From a virus, in IMG/VR virus record IMGVR_UViG_3300017750_000142, positions 1 through 21,724 of that record: a DNA stretch of 21,724 bases; one strand, written 5' to 3'. Made by a program: the position numbers and the translations under genes. The notes beneath the pieces were generated by a model that was not told the origin of the DNA, ran no database searches, and saw only the letters and a list, made by a program, of their open reading frames with translations. Of this stretch, positions 1,319-4,763 are shown piece after piece. The first letter of the stretch is position 1. Each line of letters starts with the position of its first letter.

Positions 1319-1732
1319 ATGGCGGCACAGAAGGGTTCGTCCCTACTTCTGAAAATCGGCAACGCAGGTTCGCCGGAGACTTTTACGACTATCGGTGGCC
1401 TGCGGTCCACATCAATCACTATGAATGATGAGGCTGTGGACATCACTAACAAGGATAGCTCTGCTATCCGTGCCTTGCTGGCGAATGGCGGGGTGCAATC
1501 AACAAGTATCTCTGGTTCTGGAGTTTTCACAGATGCAGCATCAGAAACCACACTAAGAGGAAAGTTTGGAGCATCCAGCTTCTCAAACTTCCAAGTTATT
1601 GTGCCAGATTTCGGCACTTATACCGGAGCCTTCATGGTTGCCAGCCTTGAGTATGCGGGTGAGTACAACGGTGAGGTCACCTATTCCGTAACTCTGGAAT
1701 CAAGTGGCACGATTACGTTTGCCACGGTCTAA
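1319..1732 (+). CDS. Major tail tube protein
   Basis: This 137-residue protein begins MAAQKGSSLLLKIG and has the alternating beta-strand pattern of siphovirus tail tube proteins: TFTTIGGLRSTSITMNDEAVDIT near residues 20-43, then a QSTSISGSGVFTD strand, and a C-terminal GEVTYSVTLESSGTITF strand. This is the TP901-1-like major tail family, whose hexamers stack to form the tail tube. It is the only gene in this block preceded by a near-ideal ribosome binding site (AAAGGAG, 7 bases before the ATG), as expected for a protein made in large amounts. Position directly after the terminator and before the tail chaperones agrees. Confidence 0.85.
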   Translation: MAAQKGSSLLLKIGNAGSPETFTTIGGLRSTSITMNDEAVDITNKDSSAIRALLANGGVQSTSISGSGVFTDAASETTLRGKFGASSFSNFQVIVPDFGTYTGAFMVASLEYAGEYNGEVTYSVTLESSGTITFATV

Positions 1733-1734
1733 TC

Positions 1735-2007
1735 ATGGCTTGGGAACTTGTTGAAGTATCCATCAAAAAAAAGAGTTGGTTGGCTCATAAAAAGTCAACT
1801 GACTCTGGACTTGAGTGGACTATACCGTGTGCTACTGGCTTAAAGGCTGGTGGCACATTTACATGCGGTGATGAAACGCTCACCGCTCAAACTTGCGTGG
1901 ATGTCGCCCAACGTGGCGAGGTGTTCATTGTGACGACACAGGAGACAAATGATGTCAAATCCAAAGCGCGGAGAGCTAAAGATAGCTCTGGGGAAGAAGA
2001 CACATAA
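1735..2007 (+). CDS. Small unknown protein in the tail block
   Basis: I do not recognise this 90-residue protein. It starts two bases after the tail tube stop without its own clear ribosome binding site, so it would depend on re-initiation. The body is beta-rich with three cysteines (CATG, TCGDE, QTCVDV) and a GEVFIVTTQE strand. The last 20 residues are charged and overlap the start of the tail chaperone by 56 bases in another frame. The gene order suggests a tail-related role, but nothing in the sequence proves it. The overlap with the next gene could also mean that the true C-terminus matters little. Confidence 0.55.
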   Translation: MAWELVEVSIKKKSWLAHKKSTDSGLEWTIPCATGLKAGGTFTCGDETLTAQTCVDVAQRGEVFIVTTQETNDVKSKARRAKDSSGEEDT

Positions 2008-2299
2008 CGGAAAGGTTACCCTAGATGTTGTGATGCGTATTGAGCAATCTTGTGGCAAGGGTATTGTCCAGATTGCTCAGTCATTACAAGCTGGTGAGCT
2101 TACAACATCACAGATGGTTGCCATTCTCACGCCGGTTATCAAAGCAGGCGGCAATGATGTGGATGAGAAAGCAGTTGGTGCTATGCTCTGGGAAGGTGGC
2201 CTAGCTGAAGGAATGAAGGTAATTGCAGAGGTTGTCTCTGCGGTTCTTACAAGCGGCGGCGATGAGGGAAACGTAGACGAGGCGGAAGTGTCAGCATAG
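1952..2299 (+). CDS. Tail assembly chaperone (GTA gp10 / TAC_11-like)
   Basis: The product (115 residues) starts MSNPKRGELKIALGKK and continues through a MRIEQSCGKGIVQIAQSLQ helix and an LTTSQMVAILTPVIKAGG helix. This matches the small GTA-family tail chaperone (Phage_TAC_11), which binds the tape measure protein during tail assembly. Two ATG codons lie side by side at 1949 and 1952. AGGAG at 1940-1944 is better spaced from the second (7 bases), and the family usually starts M-N-RGE, so I chose 1952. Near the 3' end the gene holds a canonical -1 slippery heptamer (2266-2272) that would join it to the following frame. Unshifted reading ends at TAG 2297-2299. Confidence 0.8.
   Translation: MSNPKRGELKIALGKKTHNGKVTLDVVMRIEQSCGKGIVQIAQSLQAGELTTSQMVAILTPVIKAGGNDVDEKAVGAMLWEGGLAEGMKVIAEVVSAVLTSGGDEGNVDEAEVSA
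2266..2272 (+). promoter_or_regulatory. Candidate -1 ribosomal frameshift site GGGAAAC
   Basis: In the chaperone frame the codons read GAG GGA AAC, giving the X XXY YYZ heptamer G GGA AAC. The -1 frame is closed by a TGA at 2263-2265 and opens exactly at 2266, so the slippery site sits at the first base where a shift becomes productive. Lambda gpG/gpGT uses the closely related GGGAAAG at the same place in the tail gene order. I did not identify a downstream pseudoknot. Confidence 0.72.
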
Positions 2300-2493
2300 A
2301 AGAACTCCCGTGGGATGTCTGGATGCAGACAGCCTTGGGCAAAATGGGGATGTCCCCTTCTGTTTTCTGGGATATGAGCTTCTACGAGTTATACGCGGCC
2401 ATTGAGGGTTTCGCGGAGTTTCATTCAGGTGGTAAACCGCCGCCACTAGGTAAGGATGAACTTGAGGACTTGATGGAGAGGTATCCTGACTAA
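2266..2493 (+). CDS. Tail chaperone extension, TIGR02216/TAC_6-like, -1 frame
   Basis: This frame has no good start of its own. The first ATG is at 2323, has no ribosome binding site and would cut off conserved residues. The reading is (RRRGGS)VSIEELPWDVWMQ, then ALGKMGMSPSVFWDMSFYEL, then a short spacer and a final LEDLMERYPD. This is the pattern of the small GTA tail chaperone TIGR02216 (W-LM, G-LG-SP-FW, TP-EL and a final LM-R-PD). The W-DVW residues of the family lie before the ATG, so production by a -1 shift from the upstream chaperone is the best explanation. The fusion would have about 180 residues. The TAA stop overlaps the tape measure ATG by one base. Confidence 0.75.
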   Translation, partial: GKRRRGGSVSIEELPWDVWMQTALGKMGMSPSVFWDMSFYELYAAIEGFAEFHSGGKPPPLGKDELEDLMERYPD

Positions 2494-4763
2494 TGGCTAC
2501 TACAGTTGATACCCTATTAGTCCGCATTGAAGCGGATATGCGTGATGTCAGGCGTGATCTAGCGTCATTGGAAAAGCGCACAGAAACAGCATCACGCAGC
2601 ATTTCTAAAAGTATGAACAGGATTGGCACAGTAACCCAAGCGGTTATTGGCGGTGTCCTTGTGCAGCAATTTGCCCGTGGAATCATGTCGCTGACGAACT
2701 TTGCTTCAGACATGGAAGAAATGTCAGCGATGTCAGAGGCTGTGTTCGGTGGTTTTGTCACATCTGTTAGAAATCAATTAGAGGAATTTGGCACCGCTGT
2801 TGGCCGTTCTAGCTTTGAGCTAGAAGCTATGGCGGCAAGCGTTCAAGACACGTTCGTGCCTCTAGGGTTCGCGCGAGGAACGGCGGCTGATTTATCAGTG
2901 CAGCTTACCAAGCTAGCGGTTGACGTTGGCTCATTCAAGAATGAGCTTGAGACAGATGTCATGGCTTCTTTCCAATCAGCGTTGGTCGGCAACCATGAGG
3001 CTGTGCGCCGGTTTGGAATAGTAATTACAGAAGCAGAACTCAAAAATGAGTTGTTGCGGATGGGCATTAAGAAAGCAGCAAAAGATGTAGATGCTCAAAC
3101 TAAAGTTCAGGCTCGTTTGAATCTAATTCTGGCTGGCACGGTTGATGCACAAGGGGATGCCGCAAAAACAGCGGATAGTTATGCGAACTTAACTCGCGCT
3201 TTGGACGCAGAAGTGAAGTTACTTGCAAAGGATTTGGGCGATCAACTACTGCCGATTATGAAAAGCCTAGTCATAACCACTACCGCTGTTATCAAAGAGT
3301 TCAGACAGTTCTTCCGTGCAATCGGATTCATCAGCACAGCCCATGATGATTTTGTGAAAAATCTCAAAAGGGTTAAAGAGGCTGAAGAGGACGTTGCAAA
3401 AGCACAGGAAAAACTCGCAAAATCTCCTAATTATATGCCGCATATCGTGGCGGCAAGGAAAGCAAATGATGAACTGACTGCCGCGCTGAAGGAGCAAGAT
3501 GAAATTCTTGATCCACTTATAAATGCCCGTATAGAGGCATCAAAGGCCACAAACGACAATGCGGCGGCAACGTCAAACTTAACTGAAGAGGAAACAAAAG
3601 CTGAGAAAGCTCTCAAGAGCCTGCGCCTTGAATTGGCGATGCTCAAAACAGGGAGAGAAGATCAAACTGGTGTATCCGCTGATTTGTTAAAATTAGAGGC
3701 AGAGCTAGGTGATGAATATTTCGTGATCAGCAAAAAATTAAAATCTCTTCTGATCATGATTAATAATGAAAAGGAAGCGCAGGAAGCCGCCGCTGAAGCG
3801 GCAGAAAAACATGCGGATAAGCTCAAAGAAGTAGCTGATGCTTCTGAAGAAGTCACCAAACTCATAAAAAAGGCGGCACAAGCCCAACGCAATGAGATGA
3901 CTGCCGCCTTTTTAGAAGGCAATGAGGAAATCAAAACATATCGTGATCTTGTTAAAAGTTTGCAGCATGAGAATGAATTGCTTCAGCAAAGTATAGACGG
4001 CGTTTCTGAAGCAGAAATGTTGGCAAACAAAATCATTAGAGATAACAACCTTGAACACACAACACAGCAAAAGACGATAAGAGAACTTATCAAGACATAC
4101 TTTGAGTTACAGGATTCTATTCAATTATCAAATGAGGCCATCGATCAGGCCGCAAAAGATACTATTATCATGGCTGATTCCTTTGGTTTGATTACTGAAG
4201 AAATTGAAAAGTTTAATAAAAAAGCTAAAGAAATTGATCCCATGACCAAAGAAATGAACTCAGCACTGGCATCAATGTCTAGGGGCATCAGTGATTCATT
4301 TGCTGATATGGTAGTCAGCGGCAAGATGAACTTGGATTCCCTGCGTGATGTCTTCAGTAGCTTTGTGAGAACGATGATATCCAAAGCCATTGAGCTTGCA
4401 GTGATTAACCGTATTATGAATAGCGTGTTCAATTTGAGAGGCACATCAGGAGAGCTTCCAGAAATTGGCGCGAAGGCGGGCGGCGGCAGAATTAGCGGGC
4501 CAACGATTGTAGGCGAGAGAGGCCCAGAGTTATTCGTTCCATCCAGCGCGGGCGTGATCAAGAACAATATGGATACAAGAAACATACTCGGCGGTGGAGG
4601 CGGGGCGGTGGTCAATCAGGTAATAAACATTGATGCGGGCGTTTCCCAGACTGTGCGGGCAGAGATGATGACCATGTTGCCTATGTTTAAATCGTCAGCT
4701 ATGGAAGCTATCATTGACAGTCGCAGGCGAGGTGGTCAGGTAGCCACAGCATTTGGAGCATAA
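2493..4763 (+). CDS. Tape measure protein
   Basis: This 756-residue protein sets tail length and is delivered with the DNA. The first 60 residues form a helical MRDVRRDLASLEKR segment. Residues 60-260 match the phage tail tape measure core, with SSFELEAMAASVQDTFVPLG and GNHEAVRRFGIVI blocks. Long alanine- and glutamate-rich coiled coils follow near 290-370 and 430-580. The C-terminal GRISGPTIVGERGPELFVP block near 668-690 is nearly universal in tape measures of this kind. At about 1.5 angstrom per residue, the established rule, the tail would be near 110 nm. The ATG overlaps the stop of the chaperone extension. No lysozyme or peptidase domain was seen in it. Confidence 0.93.
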   Translation: MATTVDTLLVRIEADMRDVRRDLASLEKRTETASRSISKSMNRIGTVTQAVIGGVLVQQFARGIMSLTNFASDMEEMSAMSEAVFGGFVTSVRNQLEEFGTAVGRSSFELEAMAASVQDTFVPLGFARGTAADLSVQLTKLAVDVGSFKNELETDVMASFQSALVGNHEAVRRFGIVITEAELKNELLRMGIKKAAKDVDAQTKVQARLNLILAGTVDAQGDAAKTADSYANLTRALDAEVKLLAKDLGDQLLPIMKSLVITTTAVIKEFRQFFRAIGFISTAHDDFVKNLKRVKEAEEDVAKAQEKLAKSPNYMPHIVAARKANDELTAALKEQDEILDPLINARIEASKATNDNAAATSNLTEEETKAEKALKSLRLELAMLKTGREDQTGVSADLLKLEAELGDEYFVISKKLKSLLIMINNEKEAQEAAAEAAEKHADKLKEVADASEEVTKLIKKAAQAQRNEMTAAFLEGNEEIKTYRDLVKSLQHENELLQQSIDGVSEAEMLANKIIRDNNLEHTTQQKTIRELIKTYFELQDSIQLSNEAIDQAAKDTIIMADSFGLITEEIEKFNKKAKEIDPMTKEMNSALASMSRGISDSFADMVVSGKMNLDSLRDVFSSFVRTMISKAIELAVINRIMNSVFNLRGTSGELPEIGAKAGGGRISGPTIVGERGPELFVPSSAGVIKNNMDTRNILGGGGGAVVNQVINIDAGVSQTVRAEMMTMLPMFKSSAMEAIIDSRRRGGQVATAFGA

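Follow-up and report, generated by a model that had tools for sequence, protein, structure and literature searches.

A probable lambda-type -1 frameshift joining TAC_11 and TAC_6 tail chaperones in a marine phage, with likely counterparts in gene transfer agents

Introduction

A conserved frameshift in tail-chaperone genes has been described for lambda gpG/gpGT (Xu, Hendrix and Duda 2004, cited by PMC5009743 and PMC3711429), and work on phages of Rhodobacter capsulatus treats such a shift as the norm for the tail chaperone genes of phages (PMC8601537). The archaeal viruses HCTV-1, -2 and -5 also use -1 frameshifting in tail g-t, with G_GGA_AAC as the reported shift site in HCTV-1 (PMC5009743). 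In the gene transfer agent (GTA) RcGTA, g10 and g10.5 are given as tail chaperones 1 and 2, and frameshifting is not mentioned (PMC11409702). Tail-chaperone frameshifting is already well known, and the GTA part of this study is the more surprising result; no report of frameshifting for PF11836/PF09550 pairs or for GTA g10/g10.5 was found in the literature searched, most subscription papers lying outside it.

The DNA analysed here (the window, 21,724 nucleotides) is an IMG/VR viral record of a marine phage with a siphophage-type tail module. Like the lambda locus, this one lies between tail tube and tape measure genes, has a putative -1 shift close to the end of its first chaperone gene and a GGGAAA-type heptamer, and is predicted to give a short product and a fusion. 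It differs in that position Z of the heptamer is C where lambda, whose heptamer is G_GGA_AAG, has G; in that no stimulator was found for the window heptamer; and in that the window families are PF11836 and PF09550, the likeness being one of arrangement and heptamer type. Both Pfam families and the gene order are common to the window and RcGTA; RcGTA is described with two separate genes, whereas other GTA lineages appear to share the frameshift arrangement of the window. The heptamer is the same as that of HCTV-1, although HCTV-1, -2 and -5 are likened to the window by the frameshift and not by protein family.

The tail module and its two reading frames

The features on which the argument rests are as follows.

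1319..1732, + strand: tail tube gene, GTA g9 homologue (PF06199, E 1e-40)
1940-1944, + strand: AGGAG upstream of the TAC_11 gene, in the upstream sequence
1952..2299, + strand: TAC_11 tail assembly chaperone gene, 0 frame, G-like product of 115 aa (PF11836); alternative ATG at 1949
2263..2265, + strand: TGA in the -1 frame, which is open only past it (sequence)
2266..2272, + strand: putative slippery heptamer G GGA AAC (sequence and conservation)
2266..2493, + strand: -1 frame with the TAC_6 domain, the T-like part of the predicted fusion (PF09550, domain match 2305-2490)
2297..2299, + strand: TAG stop of the 0 frame, TAC_11 (sequence and ORF list)
2493..4763, + strand: likely tape measure gene, 756 aa (position and length; weak PF09718 match, E 0.003, below cut-off)

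The gene order is thus tail tube, a small ORF, TAC_11/TAC_6 and the likely tape measure gene, the last overlapping the TAC_6 stop as TAATG. The tail tube product has 48% identity to the g9 product of a GTA locus (L235). By tblastn, GTA-protein matches in the window were confined to g7, g8, g9 and TAC_6, in place of the full g1-g15 chromosomal cluster of a GTA, and the window represents a phage whose tail genes are related to those of GTAs. The small ORF (90 aa, 1735-2007, + strand) lies between tail tube and TAC_11 and overlaps the TAC_11 start by about 59 bases; it had no match in Pfam or NCBIfam and was recovered by tblastn in many related loci (153 matching pieces).

It had been predicted from the letters alone that G GGA AAC sits in frame near the end of the TAC_11 gene, exactly where the -1 frame opens, and this is what is seen: GGGAAAC at 2266-2272, directly after the TGA, is split as G GGA AAC by the frame of the gene at 1949/1952-2299. 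Since that TGA shuts the -1 frame just upstream, entry from TAC_11 is possible only within 2266-2299; from 2266 the -1 frame (GGG AAA CGT...) is open to TAA at 2491-2493. The claim that this frame lacks a usable start, its conserved W residues preceding its first ATG, also held, as W at 2311 and 2320 precede ATG 2323 and no ATG, GTG or TTG lies upstream of the conserved PW motif in the -1 frame of the window. A fusion counted from ATG 1952 would have 180 aa.

The upstream product matched PF11836 (Phage_TAC_11) with 49.6 bits (E 4e-13), above the gathering score of 27.8. The search of the -1 frame against PF09550 (Phage_TAC_6) that the original prediction had proposed gave a match above the gathering score as well (44.4 bits against 23.4; E 2e-11), and the PF09550 match of the -1 product in the record had E 5e-13. 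The -1 product had further been called TIGR02216-like: it did match TIGR02216 (rcc01693 family, GTA g10.5) with E 3e-9, yet its 36.9 bits fall below the NCBIfam cut-off of 56.1, and the TAC_6 of the window is a relative of that family and not a member.

Conservation among related viruses

In the window alone the chance of such a heptamer is about 4%, a rough estimate from some 10 in-frame positions times 1/256. Viral contigs were scanned twice with the two proteins and once with an alignment, which gave about 200 loci, 113 of them distinct. TAC_6 lay in the -1 frame in every one of the 113, and the heptamer stood at the same place in all of them, as GGGAAAC in 107 and GGGAAAG in six; GGGAAA-type heptamers, proposed earlier as something to look for in homologous phages, are therefore present throughout these relatives. 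The 55 representatives (<85% identity) were picked for having GGGAAA, which the 113 loci were not; in them GGGAAA is 100% identical and the seventh base is C in 96%, while adjacent positions vary. For 34 of the 55, the heptamer is exactly the point from which the -1 frame is open.

Codon preference does not favour this sequence: in these genes Gly is encoded by GGA in only 18% of cases and Asn by AAC in 32%, and a G ahead of the two codons is likewise a minority choice, the three together having a joint frequency of 1.4%. Because the related loci have a common ancestry, multiplying such probabilities gives no p-value; the evidence is the invariance itself. A single heptamer could be chance; its conservation across relatives argues decisively for a real signal.

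The same arrangement was found in more distant named phages. It occurs with GGGAAAC in MW202777, Desulfofustis phage OP947159 and Rhizobium phage RHph_Y3_1 (MN988490), with GGGAAAA in MW202897 and with CCCTTTA in MW202613; all five records annotate two separate, unlinked genes. An alignment-based scan of named genomes also gave two Rhizobiales loci with this arrangement and GGGAAAC, from which the GTA genomes were then reached. In a virus assigned to Methanosarcinales (BK063672.1, 17905-18177) there is a TAC_6-like stretch at which no gene is annotated. In Rhizobium phage 16-3 (DQ500118.1, 8740-9040) the -1 frame past p015 is open into TAC_6-like sequence upstream of the annotated p016, and a clear XXXYYYZ heptamer was not found in that interval.

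Proposed frameshifting and alternative readings

We propose that the TAC_11/TAC_6 pair of the window is, very probably, a -1 programmed frameshift of the lambda G/GT type that would give a short product and a fusion. The central claim of the original prediction, that such a shift joins the two chaperones in the lambda manner, is strongly supported by comparison: the domains, the missing start and the conserved heptamer are observed, while slippage itself, its efficiency and the roles of both products are inferred. Most ribosomes would read TAC_11 to the TAG at 2297-2299 and make the G-like protein of 115 aa. In a minority, the Gly- and Asn-decoding tRNAs on G GGA AAC would re-pair one base back, on GGG AAA, and these ribosomes would go on in the -1 frame to make a GT-like TAC_11-TAC_6 fusion. 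By analogy with lambda (review, PMC5009743), the part common to both products may bind the tape measure protein and that encoded by TAC_6 may recruit the tail tube protein, with the short form in large excess over the fusion.

Stimulators were sought in the phage family with negative results: RNAalifold on 23 sequences gave no consensus pair, folding energy downstream of the heptamer was no lower than in neighbouring stretches, and upstream Shine-Dalgarno (SD) sequences were not enriched (5/55, against a background of 7%). This fits a low shift rate, without proving it. G_GG.A_AA.C is reported to be a low-efficiency motif in Escherichia coli, yet widely used, including by IS elements (PMC4066793). 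GG.GG is also conserved, at positions +15 to +19 relative to the heptamer; considered as an RNA signal, it is accounted for by Gly-Gly codons of the -1 linker.

Another explanation for the data is that TAC_6 is a separate gene whose start lies within the -1 frame (ATG 2323, or a near-cognate codon such as ATA 2296) and which is translationally coupled to TAC_11. An ATG is indeed present at 2323, related GTA genes do have a start of their own that overlaps the stop of g10, and the named phage records follow this reading in their annotation; we nevertheless regard it as very unlikely. A start at 2323 would remove the conserved PW motif, and only 36 of 54 representatives have an ATG there, with near-cognate codons scattered. 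Between the heptamer and the conserved W, neither ATG nor GTG occurs in any of the 54; TTG occurs in 16 of them and is the Leu codon of LPW in the loci inspected. In one of the 113 loci, L205, the -1 frame contains an ATG 39 nt before the heptamer. The stretch from heptamer to W (13-17 codons) is kept in the -1 reading from its first codons onwards (CG of Arg, GG-GG of Gly-Gly), and because the linker is conserved in this reading right after the heptamer, an internal start farther on provides no explanation. Such a start would also leave the invariant heptamer unexplained.

Transcriptional slippage on GGGAAA would likewise draw two products from one gene, through a fusion mRNA in place of ribosomal frameshifting, but it is known for runs of more than 7 A or 8 T (PMC3711429) and the runs here are of three, while the strict X XXY YYZ register is a requirement of tandem tRNA re-pairing; it is highly improbable. 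Less probable still, to the point of being negligible, is that the frame change is a sequencing artefact or the mutation of a broken gene. Frame changes near short runs of identical bases are a common type of error; however, the same sequence was present in contigs of other metagenomes (L001, L014), and the idea is refuted by the 113 distinct relatives, all of which show this frame relation, with the -1 frame intact to its stop. Ribosomal frameshifting at the heptamer would add TAC_11/TAC_6 to the tail-chaperone pairs made in this way; the phage records examined annotate the two as separate genes.

Gene transfer agents

Alphaproteobacterial genomes were searched for g10/g10.5 loci, and extended regions had RcGTA-like g4-g15 synteny in most cases; 58 loci were counted, four of which (L216, L227, L230 and L273) may be prophages and not GTAs. 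Two modes of g10.5 expression can be distinguished. In the own-start mode, g10.5 has its own ATG or GTG, usually overlapping the g10 stop (ATGA/GTGA), and no heptamer; GTA-like loci with a GLDWP-type g10.5 (L255, L256) have their own ATG. In the no-start mode, 16 loci have a g10 frame that continues past the PF.W motif, whose Pro-Phe codons CCC TTT give C CCT TTC/T/G in the g10 frame. Two further loci of this mode, L215 and L216, have GGGAAAG, and L218 has AAACCCT only and is a weak candidate. Across the 58 loci, 19 have a heptamer only, 36 a start only, two both and one neither, so that heptamer and start are near-mutually exclusive (Fisher p = 4e-12, the loci not being independent).

Codon usage accounts only partly for CCC TTT (joint 0.18 per locus). 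Only at the CCCTTT sites of GTAs was an SD-like stretch seen: 12 of these 16 loci have one ahead of the heptamer, mostly 13-16 nt away, compared with 9% elsewhere in g10. C_CC.U_UU.C is reported to give high-level frameshifting in E. coli (PMC4066793). Both modes are present within one order, and on a g9+g12 tree, a quick tree with many open forks and a very long branch for L216, the heptamer/start trait changes at least 8 times.

It is likely that several alphaproteobacterial RcGTA-like GTAs express g10.5 only via a -1 frameshift (C CCT TTC on PF.W, or GGGAAAG), in most cases helped by an SD-like stimulator upstream, and that the mode has switched at least 8 times on the tree, the chaperone pair being made as a fusion or as separate proteins. 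The view that GTAs have two separate genes here, and that the phage differs from them, applies to the many GTA loci in which g10.5 has its own start and probably fails for the several lineages that lack one and carry CCCTTTC or GGGAAAG. Homologues with their own start and no heptamer, which had been named as the case that would count against a frameshift, do exist in other GTA lineages and are absent among the relatives of the phage. The results suggest that domesticated GTAs keep, lose or regain recoding, so that fused and separate chaperones can be compared as they occur in nature and the importance of the fusion, and of its ratio, for tail assembly can be tested directly.

Several individual loci add to this picture. 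In L210 (G072:C50), g10.5 has neither a start codon nor a heptamer before its PFPW motif. L216 (G161:C3) has three GGGAAAG heptamers upstream of 54383, all in one frame, their positions relative to the TAC_6 match being -57, -45 and -21. The own-start GTA loci L283-L303 and L260 (order of G011) mostly have TTT for the F of FPW; TTT is found at this F in 15 of 24 counted motifs, all from non-frameshift loci, compared with 5 of 42 Phe codons downstream, and may be left over from a CCCTTTC site that has been lost.
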